Assembly (NCBI RefSeq): GCF_032714495.1 | Contig: NZ_JAWDKB010000006.1 | Span: 62,001 to 126,000 of the forward strand | DNA: 64,000 nucleotides | Source: Methanorbis rubei | Lineage (GTDB): Archaea > Halobacteriota > Methanomicrobia > Methanomicrobiales > Methanocorpusculaceae | Reading direction: 5' to 3' | In this document: piece after piece, positions 6,466 to 59,776 of the stretch | Layout of the letters: the number at the start of each line of letters is the position of its first letter | How positions within the stretch are numbered: the first letter of the stretch is position 1 | Translations under genes and position numbers: made by a program | The notes under the pieces: model-generated | Told to the model about the DNA's origin: nothing | What the model saw: only the letters and a program-made list of their open reading frames with translations | Databases searched by the model: none

Positions 6466-7133
6466 GAAACGCTAATAACGCGAATAGCGCGAATAAAAAA
6501 TCGCCAATGGCGATTTTTAAAATATTACCAAAATTATTTTTTTATACAACTCTCTCAGCTCGGTAAAATTACTGAGAATTTTTTCTTTTGAATAGGAGTT
6601 ACGCGGTGATGATTTTCATTGTTTGGGATTTTTCTGTAGGCTGTCTTGCTTGGAGTAACCACGGAGCACACTGAACACACGGAATTCCACGGAAAAAAAC
6701 ACAGAATACCGCTTCGCTTACGGTAAACACGGAACGCATGCCTTCGGCCTGCTTACCGCTTCGCGGGAAAGTCTAAGTGTACGGGTATTGGTATATGTCA
6801 CCGTTTTGAGATGCCAACTTCCTTGGGCTTTCCGTGTTTTCCGTAAGCGAAGCGGTATTCTGTGTTTTTTCCGTGTGTTCAGTGTGTTCCGTGGTTGCCC
6901 CAAATAAAACCAAGGGCAGAGAATCCCTTTTCCTTATGCTATTTCATACCGTGTAAGTCCTATTTTGAAAAATTTCCATTGGCGATTTTTAAGAAATTAC
7001 AAAAATTATTTTTCACACAATTTTTTCTGTTCTGAAAAATTACTGAAGATCTTTTTCTTTTGAAAAACCGCCATTGGCGATTTTTTATTCGCGCTATTCG
7101 TGCTATTCGCGTTTAATAATTATTTCGCGTTTC
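6466..7133. repeat. type 2 palindromic intergenic repeat carrying a type 1 element inside it
   Basis: The segment begins GAAACGC and ends GCGTTTC. Its arms read AATAGCGCGAATAAAAAATCG (left, about 6484-6502) and the reverse complement near 7080-7105. Each arm holds the AATCGCC-AAT-GGCGATT hairpin or its mirror form. Between the arms, at 6591-6964, sits a separate palindromic element with its own terminal repeats. The whole 668 bases can fold as one imperfect inverted repeat. No gene is visible in it. Confidence 0.75.
6591..6964. repeat. type 1 MITE-like element, copy A
   Basis: Ends are AATAGGAGTTACGCGGT on the left and ACCGTGTAAGTCCTATT on the right, an imperfect 17-base terminal inverted repeat. 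The interior is itself palindromic, with ACCACGGA-type and GAATACCGCTTCGCTTACGG-type words repeated in inverse orientation around 6656-6722 and 6840-6895. Related copies occur at 10158-10453, 14427-14790 and, degraded, at 61063-61317. No transposase is encoded, so any mobility would be in trans. Confidence 0.7.
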
Positions 7134-9972: not shown

Positions 9973-10192
9973 TCCTTTCTGGACGGTGCTGTTTGTGCTG
10001 CTGGCGGTTGCGATTCTGCTGGTGTTCGGCCTGATGCTGAAGCGAAATCTTTCGCAGGGGTCATGCTGCTGCGGCTGTTCGAAGAAGGATAAGGGTGGCT
10101 GCTGCCAGTGTGCAGTGGCTTCCCGCGAAGCTTCTTCGGAAGAAGAATATTTTTTTTATAGGAGTTACGCTGTGATGAGTTTCATCGTTTGA
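9959..10192 (+). CDS. FeoB-associated Cys-rich membrane protein
   Basis: A 77-residue protein with one membrane span near the N-terminus and then a cysteine cluster (CCCGC followed by GGCCQC), typical of FeoB-associated Cys-rich proteins (PF12669). A strong Shine-Dalgarno-like GGGAGGTG at 9945-9952 stands six bases before the TTG at 9959, which decides the start inside the end of feoB. The last twelve codons or so run into the type 1 repeat beginning at 10158, so the repeat supplies the C-terminus and stop. Iron trafficking with FeoB is inferred from position. Confidence 0.75.
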
Positions 10193-10453
10193 GATTTTTC
10201 TGTCCTTGACCTCACTTAGAGTAACCACGGAATGCACTGAGCACACAGAGCTTCACGGAAAAAAAGAAATCGCATGCCTTTGGCCTGCTCATTGCTTCGC
10301 AAAAATGCACGGAGAACGCCTGCGGCGCCGGAATGCACGGAATATATTTTTTATATTTTAAGAGAATAAATTATCTCGGAAATCTTTCCGTGCATTCCGT
10401 GGTTATTTCAAGCAAAACCATACGTCACAGAACCACACCGCGTAAGTCCTATT
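10158..10453. repeat. type 1 MITE-like element, copy B
   Basis: Left end ATAGGAGTTACGCTGT and right end ACCGCGTAAGTCCTATT match the terminal repeats of copies A and C. Inside are ACCACGGAATGCACTGAGCA and the mirrored TGCATTCCGTGGT. The left end encodes the tail of the FeoB-associated protein, and the right end provides the stop codon (CTA on the plus strand, 10449-10451) of the regulator gene on the minus strand. Confidence 0.7.
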
Positions 10454-11300
10454 CTACATTATTCTCGTTTGTGCTCGTGAGGCTCTGATAGATCTTGAGA
10501 TACTCAGGAAGAATTGTGTAGTGGATGAAGTTTTTCTCGCGATAGGTATCCACTGCATTGTAGCGTGCAAGCTGCGAGAGATGCCACTGCAAAGTCGACT
10601 GCGAGATGCTTGTTTTTTCTATGAGTTCTGTCTGCGAGATTCCCGGAGCTTCTGCAATCGCGGTGAATATTTTGTGCGGTTTTTCTCGGGTGATGAGCCG
10701 CTGCATGAACTCGATGCTTTCATCCTCGCTGCAAGCTCCTGCATACAAACAGGTCATGCCTTTTCTTGCGACCTTTCGGACTTTTCCTGCAGTCTCAAGT
10801 TTATTGATGTGATGAGTCGTGGTCCCCCGCGAGGTCTCGGTGATCTTTGCAAGTTCGGTTGCGGTAATACCTGGGTTTTCGACTATTTCGTTGTAGAGTT
10901 TCATTGTCCGAGAGTTGGGCTTGAAGGAGAACGGGTCGCGTGCCAGAAGGCCGGTGAGGGCACCGGTGGTGAGAAAGAGAAAAATGACCCAGAGAAATTC
11001 GGTAAAAATCACGGGGGGAAGACCGAAAGCATGGCTGTAGGTTATGATAATATATTCCTGTAATGATTTCATGGGATCAAATGTCGGATTTTCCACGAGC
11101 ACCACAGGAATCCCATCATCGATGTCTTCAAAGTCTACTGGTGCCGGAGAGATAGTTAGTCCTGAGAGAGGGTAGTACATCTCACCCGTATCTGCGGAAA
11201 CTCCAGTACAGAAAATCGAACATAAGAGAAAAATAGCCAGCAACGATAATGTTTTGGATCGAAAAACCATGGAACTTTTTAGCGAGGTACTCTGCATCAT
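10449..11300 (-). CDS. membrane-anchored regulator with two winged-helix domains
   Basis: A 283-residue protein. A hydrophobic segment near residues 18-36 looks like a signal peptide or first span. An extracytoplasmic stretch follows, then a second span near residues 95-118. Two winged-helix domains come after, about 130-190 (ATELAKITETSRGTTTHHI) and 205-270 (SQTELIEKTSISQSTLQWHL). The DNA-binding half should face the cytoplasm. It is the third gene after a secreted protein and a paralogue, separated by 17 bases. A sensor that controls genes directly from the membrane is inferred. Its stop codon lies in a repeat element. Confidence 0.75.
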   Translation of the reverse strand: MMQSTSLKSSMVFRSKTLSLLAIFLLCSIFCTGVSADTGEMYYPLSGLTISPAPVDFEDIDDGIPVVLVENPTFDPMKSLQEYIIITYSHAFGLPPVIFTEFLWVIFLFLTTGALTGLLARDPFSFKPNSRTMKLYNEIVENPGITATELAKITETSRGTTTHHINKLETAGKVRKVARKGMTCLYAGACSEDESIEFMQRLITREKPHKIFTAIAEAPGISQTELIEKTSISQSTLQWHLSQLARYNAVDTYREKNFIHYTILPEYLKIYQSLTSTNENNVE

Positions 11301-11317
11301 TTTTTCATATCTGAGGG

Positions 11318-12193
11318 TTATGATTCGTTTGTGTTGTCGGTGTTTTTCTTTGTTGTTTCTCCGGAAATCTTATCGACATTTTCATTGTTTTTAGTCTCTA
11401 TTTCCTGTTTTTTTGTTCCAACAAGCTGATTGTACAGCAGAACGTAGTCAGAGATTGCGGTGTAATGAACTGTGTTTTTGTTGCGAACGCTTTCAATTGC
11501 ATTGTATTTTGCCAGTTGGGACAGATGCCACTGAAGTGTTGTCTGAGGAATACCGGTCTTTTCGACTAAGATCTTTTGAGAAACTCCGGGGTGATCGATG
11601 ATGGTCTGAAATATTTTATTCGGCCTTTCCTCTGTGAGGACTTTGTGCATGAACTCTTCGTGTCCGGCTACTTGGACATTGACAGGATAATAATTTCCCG
11701 CGCCACTGTCTGTGGTCTTTTTGATTTTGCCTGCAAGACTTAAGCGATGAATCGTGTAGTTAATTGATCCGCGTGGAATTCCGGTGAGTTTCTGCAGTTG
11801 TGCCATGGTCATTCCCGGATTTTCTTTGATTGCATTGTAGACAATCATTGGACGTGATTCAGGATCATCGGGGAGTTTTTTGCGGGTGACGAGGAGGCCG
11901 AGAGCGCCTGCACCGAGGAAAATTGTGAATATTGCAAGGAGTTGTGAAATGAGTATTGAAGGAAGACCCCATACTCCAGTGTAAAGTATTGTAAGAATAT
12001 ATTCTAACTCTGATATCGGATCCATGATCCAAGGATTTTCGATAGGTGCCAATGTTTCGTCATCTTCAAAATCGTCTGGGACTGCGGAGATGATCAGGCT
12101 CCCCCTCGAAATTACAGTGTCATCTGCCATGACCGGCGTGAACAATAGCGATAGTATAATTAGTAAAATAAAAATTGGTTTGATGTTTTTCAT
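11318..12193 (-). CDS. membrane-anchored regulator with two winged-helix domains (paralogue)
   Basis: A 291-residue paralogue of the next gene with the same plan: N-terminal hydrophobic segment, a short outer segment, a span near residues 80-100, then two winged-helix domains, each with a recognisable recognition helix (IPRGSINYTIHRL and IPQTTLQWHLSQL). The last 25 residues are rich in Asn, Lys and Thr and look disordered. It lies 13 bases after the secreted protein gene. The pair may form a heterodimer; that is inference. Confidence 0.75.
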   Translation of the reverse strand: MKNIKPIFILLIILSLLFTPVMADDTVISRGSLIISAVPDDFEDDETLAPIENPWIMDPISELEYILTILYTGVWGLPSILISQLLAIFTIFLGAGALGLLVTRKKLPDDPESRPMIVYNAIKENPGMTMAQLQKLTGIPRGSINYTIHRLSLAGKIKKTTDSGAGNYYPVNVQVAGHEEFMHKVLTEERPNKIFQTIIDHPGVSQKILVEKTGIPQTTLQWHLSQLAKYNAIESVRNKNTVHYTAISDYVLLYNQLVGTKKQEIETKNNENVDKISGETTKKNTDNTNES

Positions 12194-12206
12194 AGATTTC
12201 TACCAT

Positions 12207-12665
12207 TTAAGAGCTGACTATGGTGATAGTAAATGATTGTGAACTTGTCACTGACTTCCCTCTGACAAAGAATACCCACTGTCCGCTTTGGAGCGGGCTG
12301 TCCTGGAATTGCAATGCAAGACTACCGTTAACGCTTCCATCGGTTGCGTCATCGTACTCACCATGCATAACACTGTCCGGAGTCTGGACAACAAGACCAA
12401 GATTGCTTGCTGTGGTTCCCCATGCAACTCTTACTGTAAGCGTTGTTGATCCTGCAGGTACTGTATAGGTATATCTCTCTGTTACACCTTGCGTGACTGA
12501 GCCAGTGGTTGATGATTTCGGCCACATGACATTACCGATAATCGGTGTAACAGTCATGCCGCTGTTCTTTGTCACCTGATCAGAGGACGTCGTTGCTGCG
12601 GCCGGAGCCATGCAGAATGCGAGCACACACAGCATCGCAAGTACTACAACTAATTTCTTTCTCAT
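12207..12665 (-). CDS. secreted beta-sandwich protein
   Basis: A 152-residue protein with a clear signal peptide (KKLVVVLAMLCVLAFCMAPAAA, cleavage near residue 25). The mature part has the pattern of a pre-peptidase C-terminal (PPC)-like beta sandwich: TERYTYTVPAGSTTLTVRV, a middle strand with aspartates, then QSGQWVFFVRG and a terminal TITI strand. There is no membrane anchor. It is first in the operon with two membrane-bound regulators, so it may be their extracellular partner or ligand sensor. Function unknown. Confidence 0.7.
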   Translation of the reverse strand: MRKKLVVVLAMLCVLAFCMAPAAATTSSDQVTKNSGMTVTPIIGNVMWPKSSTTGSVTQGVTERYTYTVPAGSTTLTVRVAWGTTASNLGLVVQTPDSVMHGEYDDATDGSVNGSLALQFQDSPLQSGQWVFFVRGKSVTSSQSFTITIVSS

Positions 12666-12714
12666 ACAATACGTTTGTTCTCGTTATCGTGTTATATTAT
12701 CTTTGGACATATAT

Positions 12715-12738
12715 TAGGTTTAGGTTTTCCTAAACCTA
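12715..12738. promoter_or_regulatory. perfect inverted repeat beside the promoter of the secreted-protein/regulator operon
   Basis: TAGGTTTAGG is followed by TTTT and CCTAAACCTA: ten base pairs with a four-base loop. It lies about 50 bases before the start of the gene at 12665 (minus strand), directly beside a TATA-like sequence (CTAATATATG on the minus strand). This is a good candidate operator for the winged-helix proteins of the operon. The rest of the gap to 12968 is AT-rich, with no gene seen. Confidence 0.5.
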
Positions 12739-12968
12739 TGTGGTATCCAATTGAAAAATCTTTTTTCAACGCCTCATTAATTCTTTTACGACATTATTTG
12801 TCAGAAATTTCTGAATGTCTACTGCCTTGATAAATCATTAATTTTGGCTTGACAAAGCCGATCTTTTCCTATAAATACTCTTATATTGTGACAAAACTGT
12901 ATTTCCTAAAATAAAATCGCCGAAAAAAAGTTATCCGGATATCTCCGGAAACATCTCTGAAGAAAAAA

Positions 12969-14426: not shown

Positions 14427-14790
14427 AATAGGACTTACGCGGTATGAAATAGCATAAGAAAAAGGGATTCTTTGTCCTTGATTTTATTTGGGGCAACCAC
14501 GGAACACACAGAACACACGGAATTCCACGGAAAAAAACACAGAATACCGCTTCGCTTACGGAAAACACGGAAAGCCTAAGGAAGTTGTCATCTCAAAATG
14601 GTGACCTATACATATGCCCATGCTCTTAGGTTTTCCGTTTTTTCCGTAAGCGAAGCGGTATTCTGTGTTTTTTCCGTGGTGCTCCGTGTGTTCAGTGTGT
14701 TCAGTGTGTTCAGTGTGTTCTGTGGTTACTCCAAGCGAGACCACCTACAGAAAAATCCGCAACGAAACTCATCACCGCGTAACTCCTATT
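14427..14790. repeat. type 1 MITE-like element, copy C, with short tandem repeats
   Basis: Left end AATAGGACTTACGCGGT and right end ACCGCGTAACTCCTATT differ at one position as inverted repeats. The inside is palindromic: GAATACCGCTTCGCTTACGG near 14543 is mirrored near 14645. A nine-base unit, about GTGTTCAGT, is repeated about four times at 14686-14721. Long A/T runs flank both ends. It fills the gap between the CYTH gene and the phosphoesterase gene; no gene is seen. Confidence 0.72.
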
Positions 14791-14826
14791 CAAAAAAATT
14801 TTCAAAAAAATTTCGCGAGAATTTTC

Positions 14827-15495
14827 TCACTCATCTTTTTCATCATGCACATTTCGCAGAACAATGATCGGTTCATCCTCATCGTTCAGAGTAATCACCG
14901 AATAGTTTCCTTCGGATGCCGGTCCAGGGTTCACACAGATGCGTCGCTCGAACTCAACGACGCCCTTCTGTTCATGAATGTGTCCGCAGCAGATGATATC
15001 AAACTCACGGACAACAGCCGCCACCGACTCAGAACCCACGTGAACCGATCCGTCCTCGCCGATTCCATCGAGCGCACCTTTTGGCGGAGCATGCGTCACC
15101 AGAATATTCCACCGGTTCTTTTTCATCTTCGCAAGAACGCCTGCAAGAGCTGTTGCGATCTCCTCCTCAGACAGCTCAAACAGAGTATTGAACGGAGTCG
15201 TGTTTGATCCGCCAAGACCTGAGACCGTAATCGTGCCGAGATCAATACTCTTCAGATGCAGTGAGACCGCGTCCGACGCCTCAATAATCTGCACAATCTC
15301 TTTTGGATCACAGTTGCCGGGAATCACCAGTGTTGGTGCAGGAATTTCCTCAAGCGCAGGAATCACTCCTTCCAGAGGTCCGAAATCCGTCAGGTCGCCG
15401 CCGATGAAAACGTAATCCGGCTCCACCTCATCAAAAATTTGGGAAATCACCTCATACTTTCCATGTACATCGGTAATAAACACAATATCGGTCAT
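14827..15495 (-). CDS. YfcE/MJ0936-like metallophosphoesterase
   Basis: A 222-residue calcineurin-like phosphoesterase. The metal-binding motifs occur in order: DVHGK near residue 9, GGDLTD near 33, GNCD near 60, THAPP near 135 and GHIHE near 172. These bind two divalent metals. The short length and lack of extra domains resemble archaeal phosphodiesterases of the MJ0936/YfcE group. The substrate is unknown. Confidence 0.85.
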   Translation of the reverse strand: MTDIVFITDVHGKYEVISQIFDEVEPDYVFIGGDLTDFGPLEGVIPALEEIPAPTLVIPGNCDPKEIVQIIEASDAVSLHLKSIDLGTITVSGLGGSNTTPFNTLFELSEEEIATALAGVLAKMKKNRWNILVTHAPPKGALDGIGEDGSVHVGSESVAAVVREFDIICCGHIHEQKGVVEFERRICVNPGPASEGNYSVITLNDEDEPIIVLRNVHDEKDE

Positions 15496-48377: not shown

Positions 48378-49544
48378 ATGCAGAGTATTATTAACGAGGC
48401 ATTAAAAAACTCAGAACTTGAAAAGGGAATGCAGAAGACCTCTATCGTTGACGACGACGATATGCTTGGACAGCCAAGAATCGTGATTGTCGGCTGCGGA
48501 GGCGCAGGAAACAACACCATCAACCGTCTGCACAACATGAAGGTTGCCGGTGCTGAGACTATCGCAATCAACACCGACAAGCAGCACCTGGATATGATTC
48601 AGGCTGACAAGCGTGTTCTTATCGGCAAGTCCCTGACCCGCGGTCTTGGTGCCGGAGGTTTCCCTGATGTTGGTCGCCGTGCCGCAGAGATGGCCAGACC
48701 GACGCTTGAAGAGATCTTAAAGGATGCAGACCTTGTGTTCGTCACTGCCGGTATGGGCGGTGGAACTGGTACGGGATCCGCACCGGTTGTTGCACAGATT
48801 GCCAAGGAACACGGAGCTATTGTTATTGCAATGGTCAGCTACCCGTTCCAGGTTGAGCGTGCGAGAATGCTGAAGGCCGAGGATGGTCTTGAGGCAATGC
48901 GTCAGGCAGCAGATTCTGTTATTGTTCTCGACAACAACAGACTGAAGAACTTTGTTCCAAACCTTCCGCTTGGTCAGGCCTTCTCCGTGATGGACCAGAT
49001 CATTGCTGAGACGGTAAAAGGAATCTCTGAGACGATCACTGAGCCGTCCTTAATCAACATCGACTACGCAGATGTCCGTGCAATCATGAGCAAGGGCGGT
49101 CTTGCAGTTATGCTGGTCGGCGAGTCCAAGCAGCAGAACAAGGCTGAGAGCGTTATCCGCGACTGTCTTGCACACCCGCTTCTTGACATCGATTTCAGAG
49201 GCGCAACCGGCGGTCTTATCCACATCACGGGCGGTAATGATCTTACGCTCCATGATGCTGAGGAGATTGCCCAGCAGCTGACCTATGAACTTGATCCGCA
49301 CGCAGATGTTATCTGGGGCGCACGTGTCCGCAAGGACTTTGAGGGCAAGGTTTCAGTTATGGCAATCATGACCGGTATCCAGAGCCCGCAGATTCTTGGC
49401 GGCCACTCGGTTAACCTTGCATCCAAGCCCTCTCAGTCAAGCGGCAGCGGCTTTAACTATGCCCAGGCTTCCGCCGCAACCCACTCCTCGTCAAACAATA
49501 CCGCAACTGCACGCAGCGGTTCAAGCTTTGACTGGATTATGTAA
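48378..49544 (+). CDS. ftsZ: cell division protein FtsZ (archaeal FtsZ1-type)
   Basis: A 388-residue tubulin-like GTPase. Signature motifs are [15 protein letters not shown] near residue 37, [12 protein letters not shown], and the GTP loop [14 protein letters not shown] near residue 130. The T7-loop [15 protein letters not shown] near residue 230 includes the catalytic Asp. The C-terminal 45 residues are Ser- and Asn-rich. It forms the Z-ring. A RHH gene lies directly upstream and a hairpin-rich region downstream. Confidence 0.95.
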
Positions 49545-49592
49545 GGTAGGGCAGCCACCATCCTTACACCGAGGATTTCCATACATACACTA

Positions 49593-49795
49593 GGTACCGG
49601 GGAGAAACTACACACCAACCACCACTCAGCTTCCCGGTGCCAGTTTCCTGGAGTACAAAGGACTCAGATATTCCAACCAATACGATAACTATAATTCACA
49701 CGGGGCAGGATTCACACTCAGCTGCCCCGAAAACCCCAACCCGCAATCGGGGTTGGTCAGCCTCTTTTGTTTTTTATTCTTTTTCGGTATCTTGT
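49593..49795 (+). terminator. three consecutive hairpins and T tract after ftsZ (possible sRNA)
   Basis: GGTACCGGGGA at 49593-49603 pairs with TTCCCGGTGCC at 49631-49641. CGGGGCAG at 49701-49708 pairs with CTGCCCCG at 49722-49729. CCAACCC at 49736-49742 pairs with GGGTTGG at 49750-49756. The last hairpin is followed by a T-rich tract at 49763-49793. The first two could belong to a regulatory RNA or the ftsZ 3' untranslated region. Confidence 0.45.
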
Positions 49796-49799
49796 ACTT

Positions 49800-50030
49800 T
49801 CTGTTCCGCCCACGGAAAAGCGGAGCACACGGAAATTTCACAGAAAAAACATCACGGAGCAGACGAGAACATCACGGAAATGAGTTGTTCGTGTGTTGTT
49901 TTCGGATTCCGTATTGTTCACGCCTCTCAGTGATGTTTTTATTTCTGTGTTTTCCTGCGAAGCTGCGCAACAGTAAGCATGATGGGGCAGGCATGCTTTC
50001 TCGCGTTTTTCTTGGGCGGCTTTTCGATTA
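49800..50030. repeat. degraded type 1 repeat remnant before the coiled-coil gene
   Basis: CCCACGGAAAAGCGGAGCAC and ATTTCACAGAAAAAACATCACG near 49808-49855 resemble the interior of type 1 elements, and CCTGCGAAGCTGCGCAACAG near 49955 resembles the shared repeat words. Ends are not recognisable. The gap 49545-50287 otherwise holds no gene; the final part is T-rich. Confidence 0.4.
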
Positions 50031-52429: not shown

Positions 52430-52814
52430 TTTTTTTATTTTTTTGGGTGATGGTGGATACCTTCTGCTTAGGCGCTGATTTATGAAGAACAGTGATGATG
52501 AATCTGGGGCATTTTGTTCATCATAATCAGCACACGCGTCGGATGATGTAAGTCGTAACCGGTGGATAATCACACCTATTTTTCGATGAAAACATCATTT
52601 TTGTTCTTCTTCGTATGATCATCCCTATCTGTAGCTCATCTCTCTCAAACATATCAACATGACAATCTTTCGTTTGCCGCACACAACATATCTCGAACAA
52701 GAAAATCATAATTTCCAAACCTTATTTGACAATCTAACCTCTCTCATCGCATATCAGGATCAATACGTTCTGCTATTCATAGCATCCGCTGCAAACACTC
52801 TTACCGAACCACGC

Positions 52815-53612
52815 ATGCATGATCTCGAAATACTCATACACACCTATCTTGAATACTGCAGGTATCAGAAAGGCCTCAACGAAAAAACCCTCCAAGCCTA
52901 CAAAATTGATCTCTTACAGTATCACTCCTACTATTCTGGCTGTCCCATCCCCGAAGTCCTCTCCCGGAATAACCTCATTCACTACATCACCCATCTCCAC
53001 AAAAACTACAAACCACGAAGCTCCAAACGAAAAATTGCCAGCCTCAAAGCATTCTGCGCATACCTGCAGTATGAAGAAATATTTCCTGAGAACCCCTTCG
53101 AACGAATCAAAACAAAATTTCAGGAACCTCTCCTTTTGCCTCGCACCATCCCTTTCGTAAACATCGAAACTCTTCTGATTACCGCCTATGCAGAGGCAAA
53201 ACATCATGCAGATACCAATCATTATCACACCTGTCTGCGGGATATTGCAGTTTTGGAACTTCTCTTCGCCACCGGGATCCGTGTATCTGAATTGTGCGGA
53301 CTTAATCAAATGGACATTGATCTTGATCGCGGCGTTGTCAAGATCTATGGAAAGGGTGCCAGGGAGCGAATTGTTCAGATCGGCCATGCTGAGGTACTGG
53401 CCGCACTCATCCGGTATCGTGATGCATTCACTCAGGATATTGAATCAGGTGGTGCTTTTTTCGTGAACCGTGTCCATCATCGCCTATCTGAGCAGTCTGT
53501 GAGACTCATGATCAACAAGTACACCGAGAAGGCCTCTCTTCCTCTTCATATAACTCCGCACATGTTCCGGCACATTTATGTCAAGCGCATGACAAAAAAT
53601 ATTTTGCAATAA
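52815..53612 (+). pseudogene. XerC/D-like tyrosine recombinase truncated at its C-terminus
   Basis: About 265 residues from ATG 52815, with an open extension to 52659. The N-terminal SAM-like domain is intact (LEYCRYQKGLNEKTLQAYKIDLLQY). The catalytic core has TGIRVSEL (Arg), GKGARER (Lys) and the HMFRH box. The frame then stops 14 codons after this box (TAA at 53610-53612), so the second His/Trp and the nucleophilic Tyr are missing. No remnant of the end is found downstream. It borders the AT-rich three-gene island. Confidence 0.75.
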
Positions 53613-53628
53613 TTTGTTGACTGGAACT

Positions 53629-53668
53629 ACAAAGGAAAGCAATTTTATTGCAAACTACTTGCCTTTGT
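53629..53668. terminator. double hairpin at the left end of the island
   Basis: ACAAAGG at 53629-53635 pairs with CCTTTGT at 53662-53668, and inside it GCAAT at 53639-53643 pairs with ATTGC at 53647-53651. It separates the truncated recombinase from the 3' end of the large island gene. It may be a terminator for both. Confidence 0.4.
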
Positions 53669-53699
53669 ATAAAATAGCTTGTCACCAATAATAGTATTG

Positions 53700-56600
53700 T
53701 TACTTTTTTTCAAACTGATAATAAACTGTTTCTTTAGCCCCTATTGAGAATTGATCTTTATCAAATTCAGCTGGATGGACATACCAGCATTGAGATATTT
53801 TTCCTATAGAACTTAGAGCAGCACATGCAAGGGTCTGTAATTTTGTTCCCGTAAGCCCTATTTCAATATTAGTTCCTTGATTGACATACAATGCATAATA
53901 TTTATTCAATAATTGTTTTAATATTTCTTCTGGGTTCTTTCGATCACTCAAAATAGTTTCTATATTGTTATAATTACTCTTCACTATATCTGCTGCCATT
54001 TGCGCAAGTTGTGAGCGATAGCTCTTTCCCGAAGAAACAAATAATTCAGCCCATGAATAATCTCTGTTTTCCAATAATGTAAGTATGCGTTGATTTTTTG
54101 AAACAACAAATCCTAATAATGTTGAGGGTCTCGTACTATAACAATCGGATGTCTCCAAAAGTGGTCTAATCTCATATTCTGGTTTTTCACCTATCAATAA
54201 CCCATCCATAATTTTTCTGAATCGTTTGTATTTCGGCATTTTTTTCGTTTCTTCAAATTTTTCAAAAATAGTTTTTTCAAGCGGATAATATTCTTCAGCT
54301 TCGGTGTATGAAATAATGGTTTTTTTATCACTCGATAATATTTTTTCAGCAATTGAAAAGATTAATGGTTTTGATAGCCCTGTAATATCTAACAAACAAC
54401 TCTCCACGTTATCGATTTGATTATATATTTCTACTAAATTATCGTGATCAATTTTCTCTATTAAGCCGCCATATCCCTTTTTTTGGATTGATGAAACGAT
54501 TTCATTCGTTTTCCCTTCTTCAGGATATTTAATCAAGCAAATTTTTTTGGGATTCCATATATTAAGGATATTTTTGGCTGATTCACTAGCTCTCTCTTCA
54601 AATCCTAAAGCTATAATGACCAAATCTATTTTTTTACTAATTCCACTACTCAAATCAATTTTATCTATTTTTATTTTTTCGTGAAGATACAACAAATCTG
54701 TATTTAGGGTTTCATCATTTTTCCGGTTTTCATCAACAGAAAAATGGTCAAAAAAACTTAATTGCATTTGAGGAAGTTCTTTCTTTTCGCTTTGTTCAGC
54801 TTTAACTTCCGTATATTCCAAGTTATCATCGTCATCGCCTTTAAGATTTTTTATCAATGATTTATCATTTGGATTATCCTCTAATTCATCAAACAGTCTG
54901 TCTGGCGACTTATCATCCTCCGTGTATTCCAAGTTATCATCATCATCGCCTTTAAGATTCTTTATCAATATTTCCTTGCTCGGATTGTTGAGCCAATCAT
55001 CTAATTGTTCGCCTGACAATTCAAAGCGGTCACGATCTGACAGGCCAATTAGACTAGCAATTCCGTATAATTTTCTATATGCGAGTTTGAACTGTAATAT
55101 TGGATTCGCTCCTGGATTTTTCGACCTAGGCGCACCACTAGCAAAGATGAAAATTCCTGCATCAACCAATTCTATTAATTTTTTGAGTTGTTCATTCTTT
55201 TTATCTTCGTCACTAGTAACTCTAACGTGCATGCTTGTATATTGTCTTAATCTTAGGGATGGTTTCACTTTCCGCGCTCCATCATTATATTCTTTCATTT
55301 TTTTATCATAATCTTTTTTAGATTTAACTAATAAATAATTTGACGCTTCTGCAAATGATATTGCATATTGTTGCAATTTATTGTCGCGTCTATTTAAATT
55401 GTATAAACGGCCACTACATAAATCCTGAAAACAATCTGATTGATCTTTTTTGCTTACTGGAGTTTCATTCTTATACTTTTGCACGATACGATCATATAAA
55501 AGAATAACATCACCAATATCTCCAACGCAACATCCTGCAAGAGCACTAATGCCATAGTAAGCTGTATTCAACTCAATAGATTTAGATGCAGAAGCAATAT
55601 TCAATGCAATAACTGATAAAGGACTATTACCCAATATTTTTGACGGGGGATGATCAGGATGATTTACATAATAACTCAAACGTTTTTCCAATATTTTTAA
55701 CAAAAAGGTTTTTCCATTACTATTTTTATTCTTTTCTTTAATTTTTTCTAAAACCTTTGCGCCAAAGTCATACATTGTGAAATCTCTACCTTCGCGTGCT
55801 AGAGCAACATTTCCGGGTGAAGTTAGTTCCATTAACTCTACTGATTGCATCTCGGTAGTTATTTTAAAGGAACATAGGCTACTTTGAAACAACAAATTTG
55901 AAAACAAATCAATAATGGTGTCGACTTTTAAATAACGTATACTTGCATCGTCAAGAAGGAAAAATACTTTTTTATTATTCCAAAGTTCGGACATACCCAT
56001 AATAAGCAATGCCAAAGATTCAAAGGCATTTTTGGGAGAATCTTTTAATTTGGGACCATCCGCATCAGAGAAACAAGTAATTTTCATAGAGAGATAATGT
56101 TCTAGGTCTGAATCCCCCAATTGAGTTGGATCATCTAACAAGTTTATTGTAACAATACATTGTAGAAATTCTACTACTTTTTTCTTGTAATTCGGATTTA
56201 TTAAGTCCGAATCCAAAGATTTTAAGTGTCTAATGATCCCTAGTAACTCAATAGTATATATCCAAATTAATTTAGCAAAATTATCTGAGGAAGCCCTCCC
56301 ACGATTATCGATCAAATTCGAGCATGACGCGGACAGCCCAACATAAACATCATCTTTTAAAATATCTATCCGATTGTGCGTATCATTGTGTTCAAAATTC
56401 GCTCTTGCATGAAAATCTAATGCGCCTAGTAAGGTTGTTTTGCCACATCCCCTCATTCCTGTAATTAGTTGAGGTCCAGAAACCGAAATACCCTTTAGCC
56501 ATTTATTATCTGGATCGACCAATAAAAATGGGATATAGCATTTGTGAATAGTTTGAGCATTATATCCGTCGTCTAATCTGGTGAGGACAAAATTTCGCTC

Positions 56601-57533
56601 CCATGGAGCATAGCTCAAATTGCTGTTAAAGTCTTCTTTCACAATATGAATTAGTTCATCAGGGGTAGGTACCCTGCTGCGTTCTGACAATGGAGCAATC
56701 AAATTCGTAATTTTTTCTAATGTTTCTTTTATCCGAAAATCCGAGTCAGTTGCCTTAGTCGTTACTTTATTATTTATAAGTTCCGACATTCTTTTAAGAT
56801 GATTATATATCTGAGTTTGATCTCCAAATCTGTCTGTATTACTTAAGCTTTCTTCTTTTGAAGAATTTAGGTCAATAACCATAAGGCGAATTGAGCTATT
56901 TAATTCGTCAATTCTTCGGATATTTTGACCTAATTGTTCGACAATTAAATTATCACCATGCAAGTCATTATGATACTTTTGTTTGTTTTGCAATTCACTC
57001 CAAATTCTAATAAGATCAATTGCAAGCTGAGCGAAGTTTCTTGCATTAATATTGCTATCCTCGTTAATAAACTCATTAAAGGTTGTTCCGTTGATATACT
57101 CCAATTCTGAAACAAAACAGGGTATGATGTGATTTCCAAAGGTAACATCAGCGCGAAAATAATTCTTTATCTTTACTATGTGATCCGTACCTTTTGATAT
57201 ATCACTATGCTCTACGCATTCCTTCGCAAAAACACCATATGAAGTTTCTTCTTTGCGGTTAAAATTCTTTAACTCATCATATATTCTCGCAGGTGTTACT
57301 TTGAGAATAGTTTCTTCATCAAATTTGCCGCTTGTACAAAGATAAGTAACTGCATAAAAACCACGTCCCTTTGGCATAACGACATTGTAACTTATATTGT
57401 CTTCAGACACAATGGTTGTAGGAATTTCTTTTAATGGAAAATCATATGGCATGTTACAGATAGAGCATAAATCCGTAAGCTGTTTTTCAGAATAATCTTT
57501 CTTAATACAATTGAAACAACAATATTTACCCAT
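53700..57533 (-). CDS. zinc ribbon - protein kinase-like - P-loop NTPase - unknown C-terminal domain protein (island gene 3)
   Basis: A 1277-residue multidomain protein. Residues 5-26 hold Cys pairs (CCFNC and CSIC) forming a zinc ribbon. A kinase-like domain (about 40-310) has a Gly-rich loop near 57, ILKVTP Lys at 78, HNDLHGDN at 188-195 and DLN at 221. A P-loop NTPase follows: Walker A GMRGCGKTT at 359-367 and FFLLDDAS as Walker B at 524-531. After a helical part and a linker comes a C-terminal module (about 960-1277) with IALGFEERA, LLDITGLSK, TEAEEYYP and GLTGTKLQT. Residues 856-909 contain a duplicated acidic unit. I infer a signalling or effector NTPase; a defence role is likely but unproven. 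It overlaps the upstream gene by eight bases. Confidence 0.8.
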   Translation of the reverse strand: MGKYCCFNCIKKDYSEKQLTDLCSICNMPYDFPLKEIPTTIVSEDNISYNVVMPKGRGFYAVTYLCTSGKFDEETILKVTPARIYDELKNFNRKEETSYGVFAKECVEHSDISKGTDHIVKIKNYFRADVTFGNHIIPCFVSELEYINGTTFNEFINEDSNINARNFAQLAIDLIRIWSELQNKQKYHNDLHGDNLIVEQLGQNIRRIDELNSSIRLMVIDLNSSKEESLSNTDRFGDQTQIYNHLKRMSELINNKVTTKATDSDFRIKETLEKITNLIAPLSERSRVPTPDELIHIVKEDFNSNLSYAPWERNFVLTRLDDGYNAQTIHKCYIPFLLVDPDNKWLKGISVSGPQLITGMRGCGKTTLLGALDFHARANFEHNDTHNRIDILKDDVYVGLSASCSNLIDNRGRASSDNFAKLIWIYTIELLGIIRHLKSLDSDLINPNYKKKVVEFLQCIVTINLLDDPTQLGDSDLEHYLSMKITCFSDADGPKLKDSPKNAFESLALLIMGMSELWNNKKVFFLLDDASIRYLKVDTIIDLFSNLLFQSSLCSFKITTEMQSVELMELTSPGNVALAREGRDFTMYDFGAKVLEKIKEKNKNSNGKTFLLKILEKRLSYYVNHPDHPPSKILGNSPLSVIALNIASASKSIELNTAYYGISALAGCCVGDIGDVILLYDRIVQKYKNETPVSKKDQSDCFQDLCSGRLYNLNRRDNKLQQYAISFAEASNYLLVKSKKDYDKKMKEYNDGARKVKPSLRLRQYTSMHVRVTSDEDKKNEQLKKLIELVDAGIFIFASGAPRSKNPGANPILQFKLAYRKLYGIASLIGLSDRDRFELSGEQLDDWLNNPSKEILIKNLKGDDDDNLEYTEDDKSPDRLFDELEDNPNDKSLIKNLKGDDDDNLEYTEVKAEQSEKKELPQMQLSFFDHFSVDENRKNDETLNTDLLYLHEKIKIDKIDLSSGISKKIDLVIIALGFEERASESAKNILNIWNPKKICLIKYPEEGKTNEIVSSIQKKGYGGLIEKIDHDNLVEIYNQIDNVESCLLDITGLSKPLIFSIAEKILSSDKKTIISYTEAEEYYPLEKTIFEKFEETKKMPKYKRFRKIMDGLLIGEKPEYEIRPLLETSDCYSTRPSTLLGFVVSKNQRILTLLENRDYSWAELFVSSGKSYRSQLAQMAADIVKSNYNNIETILSDRKNPEEILKQLLNKYYALYVNQGTNIEIGLTGTKLQTLACAALSSIGKISQCWYVHPAEFDKDQFSIGAKETVYYQFEKK
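54811..54973. repeat. internal duplication within the large island gene
   Basis: Two copies of a 50-base unit, at about 54811-54862 and 54921-54973, each encode LIKNLKGDDDDNLEYTE (minus strand), with five further similar residues before it. They are about 110 bases apart. They differ by a few bases, so the duplication is not from recent copying alone. Confidence 0.75.
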
Positions 57534-58746
57534 TGATTACCACCTCATAATTATTATACTGTATATTCGGGGGATGCGACATAATTGTTGCGATGGTGTT
57601 ATTAAAAATAGATATATATTTATCACGATATTTGGGACATAGACGTAAAGTTGCTATTAGCTGATTCTTATCCACCGGAATGTCTGGTAAAGCTTGAAGA
57701 ATTAACCCACAGGGGTCTGGGTATTTATTATCAGATGCCACTTCCAAGTTTTGGATTTCCACAATTAAGTCTCGTATTTTCTCAAGATTATACTTACAAT
57801 ATCCTGATGTTGGTGCATATATCTCTATATCGTGACTACATTTTATTAGGTCGCAATATTCAACAAACTTTGAATATACACCTTCTTGTTTTGCTAAATT
57901 TCGCTTGAAAGCCAAATGCAAATCTTCGTTAGAGATGTCTGTTATACTATCACTATATGTATCGTAAATAACTAAATTCCGGGATATATTCTTGCAATAT
58001 TCTTTATGATGCTCTAGCCAAGGAGACGATTCATTCAAGAATATGTTATAAAGTGCGAGTAAAGATTCGCCCCTTCCAATATATGGTTGATATGGAGTAG
58101 ATGCATCACTGATGTAACAAACTGCTTTTATGCCTAAGTTCGTTGCAGTTTCACAAAATATTTTTGCATATTTTGAAGCTTCTATATTATTATGACCTAA
58201 ATTTGCATATTTTGACACTCGTATATCGAGCCCCACAAGTGAAAGACCAACTGCTATTTTTTTTGAAAGAAGACTTGCAATTGCTAAAAAAGGGACATCC
58301 ACTTTCTGATTCTGCTTACGATACGAATATAAAATCGCATCAAGTGGCGTAAAAGACTGATCAGCAATAAAATGAATATATCCACCGGTTGCCACTTCTT
58401 TTTCTAAGTTGCTAAGGGTGTAATTTATTTTATAATTATTTATTTGGAATAGAGCATCAATAGCACCAGCTGGCCTACCCGGAATACCGAGCTTAACAAC
58501 ATCAAATCCGAGTACGTCCAAGTATAATGGACACAATAAGGTGGAAAGCGAGGATGGTCCACCTGTCGATGCAATGTCCGCCCTGTGATCTTTAAAGGGT
58601 AGACGACATCCAGAAGAGGCCAATGTTTCGGCAAGTTTTTTTATATCGCTTATTGCTACGTCATCTTGTTCGAAATATGAAACAAGCCTCTCCATCGATT
58701 CTAATGATTGATTATTTGCAAAATCACATAATATATCATCGAGCAT
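57526..58746 (-). CDS. thymidine/AMP-phosphorylase-fold protein (island gene 2)
   Basis: A 406-residue protein of the nucleoside phosphorylase class II fold. The phosphate-binding loop reads DIASTGGPSS (compare DKHSTGG) near residue 60. ELGIPGRPAGAID-like LGIPGRP follows near 88, then PFLAIASLLSKKIAVG near 155 and TPYQPYIGRGESLLAL near 220. So the catalytic layout is kept, but the Lys of DKHSTGG is replaced by Ile. ATG 58746 is favoured because AGGTGA lies eight bases upstream; GTG 58758 is possible. Overlap with the methyltransferase end and with the next start indicates tight coupling. Its substrate is unknown. Confidence 0.78.
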   Translation of the reverse strand: MLDDILCDFANNQSLESMERLVSYFEQDDVAISDIKKLAETLASSGCRLPFKDHRADIASTGGPSSLSTLLCPLYLDVLGFDVVKLGIPGRPAGAIDALFQINNYKINYTLSNLEKEVATGGYIHFIADQSFTPLDAILYSYRKQNQKVDVPFLAIASLLSKKIAVGLSLVGLDIRVSKYANLGHNNIEASKYAKIFCETATNLGIKAVCYISDASTPYQPYIGRGESLLALYNIFLNESSPWLEHHKEYCKNISRNLVIYDTYSDSITDISNEDLHLAFKRNLAKQEGVYSKFVEYCDLIKCSHDIEIYAPTSGYCKYNLEKIRDLIVEIQNLEVASDNKYPDPCGLILQALPDIPVDKNQLIATLRLCPKYRDKYISIFNNTIATIMSHPPNIQYNNYEVVING

Positions 58747-59776
58747 ATGCACCCTCACCTTTAGTTAAAAGATAATTATATATTACTGTGCATTGTATTT
58801 GGCTAAACAGTGGCGGCAAAGCATTTCCAATCATACTAGCTATAGATTCTTTAGGAATATTTGTAGGAAATATGTAATCATAAGGAAATGTTTGTAAGAG
58901 AGAGGCTTCCCTTGCCGAAATACATCTGTCTTCCTCAGGATGTAGAAAGCGTCCCTTTGAAGGATTAAGGCAACCTCCAGTAATAGTAGGTGCGACATCA
59001 TCCCATTTCATCCTACCATAAACATCTGAAAATCCAATATTAGATTTTTTGTGGCAATTCAGACGGTATATTTCGGGTAAATCTTTTTGGCTCCCTCCCT
59101 CTTTAGGAATTACAGAAATCATCTTTTTTATGCGATTAGAGTGATTAGGTAACATTTTGTGCATATCATCTTTTGTATTTGATGTTTTCTCTAGCTTGCC
59201 AATTGCTTCACGGACAGTACATTTTTTTCTTTCAACTGTATCTATTTCCAAGGCATCTCCAAGAGCGCCCAAAAGCACTAATCTTTTTCTGCGTTGTGGC
59301 ACACCATATTTTGAAAAATCAACAATTAAATGCGAGATATTGTATCCAATTTTTATAAGTTCATCATAAAAATGTAAAAATCTTTCGTATTTAATTATTC
59401 CAGGTACATTTTCCAACATAATACATTGTGGGTGGAGATCCACTATCAATCTTAAAAACTCATCAATTAAATTATTTCGTCCATCTACAACAGCTTCTCT
59501 TTTATTTTTGCACCTTACGGAAGAAAATCCTTGGCATGGAGGGCATCCGGCAAGAAGATGAAGCGGTTCACCATGCAATAATTCCCTTATTTTATTGGAA
59601 TCCAAAGTCCGTATATCACATTCAAACACATTGGTTTCTAAATGATTTAATTTATATACACTCGCGGCATTTTTGTTTATTTCAACAGCAGCAACAACAG
59701 AAAAGCCAGCTTGTTTAATTCCTTCTGACATGCCTCCACAACCAGCAAATAAGTCTATAGCATTATATTTTTTCAT
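58736..59776 (-). CDS. DNA cytosine-5 methyltransferase (island gene 1)
   Basis: A 346-residue C5 methyltransferase. Motif I DLFAGCGGMSEGI (residues 8-20), motif IV GCPPCQGFS with catalytic Cys81, motif VI ENVPGI at 122-127, motif VIII QRRKRL at 161-166, and motif X GNALPP at 317-322 are all present. The region between motifs VIII and IX, the target recognition domain, is short. It is the first gene of the island operon. It may protect host DNA while its partners act on unmodified DNA; that is inference. No restriction endonuclease is seen beside it. Confidence 0.92.
   Translation of the reverse strand: MKKYNAIDLFAGCGGMSEGIKQAGFSVVAAVEINKNAASVYKLNHLETNVFECDIRTLDSNKIRELLHGEPLHLLAGCPPCQGFSSVRCKNKREAVVDGRNNLIDEFLRLIVDLHPQCIMLENVPGIIKYERFLHFYDELIKIGYNISHLIVDFSKYGVPQRRKRLVLLGALGDALEIDTVERKKCTVREAIGKLEKTSNTKDDMHKMLPNHSNRIKKMISVIPKEGGSQKDLPEIYRLNCHKKSNIGFSDVYGRMKWDDVAPTITGGCLNPSKGRFLHPEEDRCISAREASLLQTFPYDYIFPTNIPKESIASMIGNALPPLFSQIQCTVIYNYLLTKGEGAYAR

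Follow-up and report, generated by a model that had tools for sequence, protein, structure and literature searches.

An exported protein paired with membrane-anchored double winged-helix proteins in Methanorbis rubei and its relatives, and a candidate operator at their promoters

An operon of Methanorbis rubei that encodes an exported protein beside two membrane proteins with DNA-binding domains raises the question of whether the state of the cell surface could be reported directly to a promoter, and by which DNA element. The operon had been predicted, from its letters and open reading frames, to form a one-component surface-sensing system in which the secreted protein is a partner and a ten-base-pair palindrome the operator. 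We followed up this prediction in the window, i.e. the whole stretch of 64,000 nucleotides that was analysed (C6:62001-126000 of the 1.83-Mb draft genome, G000), and in related genomes.

A constant pair of an exported protein and a membrane-anchored regulator

The three open reading frames lie on the minus strand in the order P, W-A, W-B, separated by gaps of 13 and 17 bp, with feoB on one side and the gene of an FKBP26-type isomerase on the other. P (12207-12665, minus strand) has 152 residues, with a signal segment and a beta-sandwich of PPC/P-domain type. W-A (11318-12193, minus strand) has 291 residues and comprises a signal segment, an outer part, a span at about residues 79-103, winged helix 1 at about 114-170, winged helix 2 at about 189-246 and, after these, a long C-terminal helix. 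Its paralogue W-B (10449-11300, minus strand; 283 residues) has the identical architecture and shares 36-38% of its residues with W-A. Open reading frames, domain matches and modelling thus uphold the predicted operon of an exported beta-sandwich protein and two membrane DNA-binding paralogues. Five relatives carry it at the same place: G012, which is the sister species, G032, G011, G016 (M. petauri) and G024. W-B is intact in the window, G012 and G011, is reduced to a remnant in G024 and G016, and was not seen in G032; the second W is dispensable.

Two other features of the window deserve mention. Clusters of CACGGA-type repeats, intergenic where read, occur around 6500-7000, 10000-10500, 14500-15000 and 49500-50000, and include a long imperfect inverted pair downstream of W-B. 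A GC-poor island at 52659-59776 (GC 0.32-0.35 over 54-60 kb) encodes a phage-type integrase, a protein of 1277 residues that matches PADLOC CARF6 (CARF_STK_AAA) over its whole length, a protein of 410 residues and a C5 DNA methyltransferase; judging by this content, it is likely a defence island.

P matches the Pfam PPC family (PF04151) with an E-value of 4e-4 and 21.5 bits, which is below the curated cut-off of 25.9, and 9 of 19 P members match it at E up to 0.1. The AlphaFold2 model of P has eight strands, with a mean pLDDT of only 68, and the solved structure closest to it is the C-terminal domain of the Tk-SP subtilase (Z 13.4, rmsd 1.9, 100 residues), the C-terminal jelly-roll of KP-43 scoring Z 12.3. 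A profile built from 19 P relatives also retrieves subtilase C-terminal domains, KP-43 at an E-value of 4e-5. The modelled fold of P is thus the PPC-like jelly-roll that these subtilases carry at their C-terminus. Unlike in Tk-SP and KP-43, the domain stands alone in P, with no protease in the same chain.

Each W of the window has an N-terminal hydrophobic segment, an outer stretch of about 60 residues, one span and two matches to HTH_24, a family matched by all 22 W members tested. Scores against HTH_HVO_0163_N (PF24266) were 39.0 and 43.8 bits for a cut-off of 31, a match at the level of the domain only; for the DUF7343 HTH (PF24034), W-B scored 16.2 bits against a cut-off of 27.6 and W-A was not listed. 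Foldseek returned winged-helix domains for W, and the outer segment of the W-A model is of low confidence. A second span could be detected in 105 W proteins, and in 104 of them lysine and arginine are more numerous after it than before it, with means over 20 residues of 4.4 and 1.1, respectively, across the 105. The winged helices are hence placed in the cytoplasm, as predicted originally, and not outside.

The pair extends well beyond these species. A scan of genome contigs put names to just three loci, Ca. Methanocorpusculum faecipullorum, M. petauri and Methanocorpusculum sp. HAC020.1. Within the family, 33 genomes yielded 46 P matches, of which we read the 41 with E-values up to 1.6e-4. 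W lies directly downstream of P on the same strand at all 41 loci; P is intact in 40 of them, and that of G000:C9 has an in-frame stop. Of the 150 genomes searched in the order, 84 have P matches, as do, with a stricter cut-off, 84 of the 295 in the phylum. Among loci taken from the upper hit lists and spread over genomes, hence a non-random sample, the pair was found at 20/20 in other families of the order and as clean open reading frames at 18/20 elsewhere in the phylum, the last two having a W at the P match and no clean P frame. No relative was found in the viral contigs searched. Of the gene order that the original prediction had proposed to check in relatives, the succession P-W is thus very constant, and because it is so constant P and W are likely functional partners. 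Some W relatives (L096, L097, L052, L099 and L108) have far longer outer parts, with 339-486 residues overall; they occur in tandem in L096 and L097, and a TGATCA-block promoter is shared with a divergent small dehydrogenase-like gene.

One could argue instead that W regulates and that P is a mere surface protein under its control, with no part in sensing. In its favour, P is exported and probably co-transcribed with W, and exported genes are common beside the modules. Against this, P alone never changes place across the loci counted above, whereas the divergent proteins are exchanged (see below). Furthermore, the similarity of P is tied more closely to the outer part of W than to the winged helices (partial correlations of 0.65 and 0.36), even though gene order alone could explain this. 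We consider that P is unlikely to be such a bystander, although among the alternatives this is the one that survives best.

A conserved half-site at the promoter and elsewhere in the genomes

The predicted operator did not fare as well as the proteins. A perfect inverted repeat does exist by the promoter, TAGGTTTAGG-TTTT-CCTAAACCTA at 12715-12738, and it is perfect in the window only. It stands out little from shuffled sequence (p 0.033 when 150 nt were shuffled 60 times; 0.098 when 260 nt were shuffled 40 times), and in the whole window perfect arms of 10 or more, with a loop of 12 at most, are counted 15 times. Among the five relatives that keep the operon, it is reduced to 8+8 in G012 and gone in G032, G011, G016 and G024. 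We thus rejected the palindrome as the operator, its absence from relatives that keep the operon being what the original prediction had named as grounds for refutation. What is conserved is its right arm, extended downstream into an overlapping half-site that all five relatives possess.

This half-site, AAACCTAATATATGTCCAA at 12703-12721 on the minus strand, is our proposed W operator, delimited from the alignment of six species and from sites elsewhere in the genomes. In all six species a one-sided site, AAACCTAA-N5-GYYCAA, lies directly upstream of the TATA box, with one mismatch to the pattern in the P-side site of G011. The TATA box of the window is TAATATAA (12692-12699, minus strand), and TATAA is invariant in the alignment. 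Altogether, the six promoters have in common TTTmGGAAwACCTAAACCTAAT, the TATA box and a short stretch ahead of the start codon. A TATA box at this position implies a leader of only a few nucleotides, which puts the half-site some 35-55 nt upstream of the transcription start.

The half-site has a mirror copy. All five relatives carry it on the opposite strand, as AAACCTAATTCGCGCTCAA or AAACCTAATATTTGTCCAA, about 124 bp upstream of the operon half-site, with a TATA box of its own and directed towards the isomerase gene, whose 3' end it faces. The G012 pair amounts to a dyad of 27-nt arms separated by 124 nt (score 22, p 1/41). The same dyad scan gives only 10-nt arms in G032, G011, G016 and G024 (p 0.07-0.15), where the pattern matches on both sides. 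The copy intact in these relatives has been lost from the window by substitutions and, relative to G012, an 11-bp gap: a remnant that points away from the operon persists at 12851-12863 (plus strand), and the TATA-like TATAAATA remains beside it at 12870-12877 (plus strand).

The window site seemed at first private to its genome, as ACCTAAACCTAAT gave a single exact copy, a view dropped when the better pattern AAACCTAAN5GHYCAA gave three. Across the six genomes this pattern has 25 exact matches (3 in G000, 2 in G011, 5 in G012, 7 in G016, 2 in G024 and 6 in G032), i.e. 2-7 per genome against a chance expectation of about 0.1. Allowing one mismatch raises the number of sites to 43, with 15 for the reversed control pattern. 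By eye, most half-sites have a TATA-like stretch no more than about 10 nt behind them. Four sites in trans, two in G016 and two in G032, lie upstream of genes of exported proteins of 585-623 residues, one of which has GLUG and List_Bact_rpt repeats, as found in adhesin-like proteins, and another a Cache domain. Genes of surface proteins are the likely targets of W.

The two trans sites of the window genome and most of those elsewhere have no clear protein gene downstream. Behind the sites of G016:C22, G032:C1a, G011:C12 (with one mismatch), G000:C2 and G012:C1 come mutually related stretches some 300 nt long, which lie at L199:1400-1747 (minus strand), L186:1980-2327, L190:1990-2320, L183:1650-1981 (minus strand) and L196:1932-2262, in five Methanocorpusculum species. 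Indels between the stretches of G000:C2 and G012:C1 break the reading frame. Rfam gave no match at gathering score in the conserved non-coding stretches after trans sites and only tRNAs elsewhere in the loci. The stretch behind half-site and TATA box is a candidate non-coding RNA. A second group of half-sites (two GACCAA, one GTCCAA) precedes another, partly conserved non-coding stretch in three species (L192:322-640, L184:1682-2000 and, on the minus strand, L185:1774-2091).

Linked changes of site and regulator, and the mirror promoters of paralogues

If W binds the half-site, the two may be expected to change together. In the window genome and G012 all 8 exact sites have G[TA]CCAA in the TATA-side half, and GCTCAA stands at 16 of the 17 in the remaining four genomes (Fisher 8e-6; 5/5 against 9/10, p 0.002, with operon sites excluded). 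Recognition helix 1 of W-A differs along the same line, being RGSINYT[IV]HRL in the lineage of the window and RGSV[ST][VA]NLH[RH]L in the other, and recognition helix 2 hardly varies (TTLQWHL.QLA[KR]Y). A joint change at several sites is what one would expect if a single trans-acting protein had changed. Since helix 1 varies with GYYCAA and helix 2 stays nearly constant, we propose that GYYCAA, on the TATA side, is probably the target of winged helix 1, and the AAACCTAA half that of winged helix 2. The switch between the two lineages is a single evolutionary event, and we thus put this assignment forward as a hypothesis. Among paralogues, operator similarity correlates with winged helix 1 at 0.53 when winged helix 2 is held constant, and at 0.08 in the converse case.

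The same data bear on the alternative that another, soluble regulator reads the half-site and that W is just one target among others. Half-sites in trans, at promoters apart from the operon, would be expected under that scheme too. Such a regulator would nevertheless have to account for the mirror sites that flank the operon promoter in five relatives, for the site type that every group of paralogous modules has as its own and that tracks W, and for the change of recognition helix 1 along with the half-site. We thus hold it to be quite improbable.

The paralogous modules generalise the mirror arrangement. Dyads scoring at least 13 within 150 nt occur in 20 of 40 P-led modules and in 3 of 71 control upstream regions; two of the three control hits come from an S-P-W operon promoter in L094. 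Their arms measure 17-33 and their loops 6-66, many have a TATA box at each end, and they occur in 10 of 19 W groups. Rescanning with longer loops gave dyads in 21/40 modules against 7/53 controls, at least three of which (L046 and, twice, L094) are themselves module promoters. The 27- and 29-nt stretches of two paralogous modules are single copy at up to 3 mismatches. An exported protein is encoded divergently upstream in 23 of 38 judged modules; these divergent genes were judged by hand, antisense frames at L055, L057, L058 and L094 were dropped, the broken L071 was counted, L081 was seen in part, and the truncated L077 and L088 were left out. The divergent protein is a reprolysin-like metalloprotease in L048 and in L165, the latter from another family. 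A divergent exported relative of the L048 metalloprotease at L074:2270-3700 lacks the HExxH motif and is possibly a pseudoprotease. Two simpler views were abandoned. First, long dyads seemed to occur solely with a divergent exported gene (20/3/0/15), until the rescan gave the dyad of G012, which has no such gene; the mirror half-sites of the other four relatives revised this view as well. Second, TTGRNCAA fails as a general core, being present in 10/40 modules and 5/71 controls.

What, then, does the operator of a module follow? Across 18 modules its similarity goes with that of W (r 0.83, p 2e-4); for the divergent protein there is no such relation (r 0.13, p 0.08, partial -0.07). L084 and L085 have a near-identical divergent protein and different operators, whereas L048/L076, L085/L087 and L084/L090 share an operator beside unrelated divergent proteins. 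This fits regulators that keep their operator while the target genes are swapped. Operator similarity correlates with the outer part of W (0.78, partial 0.40) as it does with the winged helices (0.76, partial 0.34), and because the outer part tracks the operator equally, the paralogue set leaves recognition unseparated from the shared descent of P and W. That the long mirror repeats act in recombination, or as structural elements, when surface-protein genes are swapped, and are not operators, which the persistence of the repeat in the three exchanged pairs would suit, is the least probable alternative, given that many arms end in TATA boxes at promoter distance, that arms differ across module groups and mirror each other within a module, and that the window locus has isolated half-sites in trans.

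A putative surface-responsive switch

The account that we favour, and consider moderately probable, is that W is a membrane-anchored one-component switch that autoregulates its operon and controls surface genes, with P as its outer partner. W would sit in the membrane with some 60 residues outside and two winged helices inside; exported P would most likely act on the outer part as a sensor or co-receptor; and W would bind the half-site, some 19 bp long and immediately upstream of the TATA/BRE region, and in this way regulate the operon itself together with a small number of unlinked promoters, including some for large exported proteins. In many paralogous modules, two mirror half-sites may serve both the P-W operon and a divergent exported protein, sometimes a reprolysin-like metalloprotease. 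Because the site lies upstream of the TATA region, like the ArnR boxes discussed below, activation by W seems slightly likelier than repression. Of the surface-sensing system first predicted, the membrane one-component regulators and the P-W pairing have thus stood, and the palindrome as their operator has not.

The order of domains in ToxR is the reverse of that in W. With this difference, P-W resembles the Vibrio ToxR/ToxS-type pairs, in which a membrane-anchored winged-helix regulator adjoins a partner gene (PMC7496328). Of the same general sort as W are the transmembrane transcription regulators (TTRs), one-component regulators that combine a DNA-binding domain with a membrane span and for which Methanomicrobia are reported to be enriched, and W has the predicted span and predicted DNA-binding domain that define them; the portions of that account available to us describe no exported PPC-type partner gene, mirror-image promoter or such module (Demey et al. 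2023, PMC10269533). The nearest archaeal case studied so far, ArnR and ArnR1 of Sulfolobus acidocaldarius, comprises membrane-bound regulators of surface structures whose inverted-repeat boxes lie -43 to -84 from the start site, a position close to that of the window half-site (PMC6396743). ArnR carries its HTH at the N-terminus and two spans at the C-terminus, together with HAMP-like and sensor parts. In W, by contrast, the outer part is N-terminal, there is a single span with both winged helices C-terminal to it, and a partner gene lies alongside, so that W falls outside the ArnR type. We found no description of the P-W pair, the half-site or the mirror promoters in the open-access literature searched, and the text available from PMC4858521, PMC4158269, PMC8416519, PMC2686161 and PMC3035222 does not describe the pair. 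It looks as if the general type of regulator, the TTR, is known, and the pairing with P, the half-site and the mirror promoters are so far undescribed.

More tentatively, and with somewhat less than even confidence, the gene pairs may represent a phylum-wide family in which 1) an exported PPC protein would report the state of the surface to a tethered double winged-helix factor; 2) several insulated copies would each have their own mirror-operator code; 3) adhesins, metalloproteases and perhaps small RNAs would be exchanged like cassettes; and 4) the two winged helices would each read one half of the site, one fast and the other slow to change. To our knowledge, little is known of how Archaea sense their surface and choose their surface proteins, and few of their membrane-bound regulators have been studied experimentally. 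A compact, repeated gene pair with a candidate operator, natural swaps of targets and a natural change of specificity would make regulator, operator and partner each testable.
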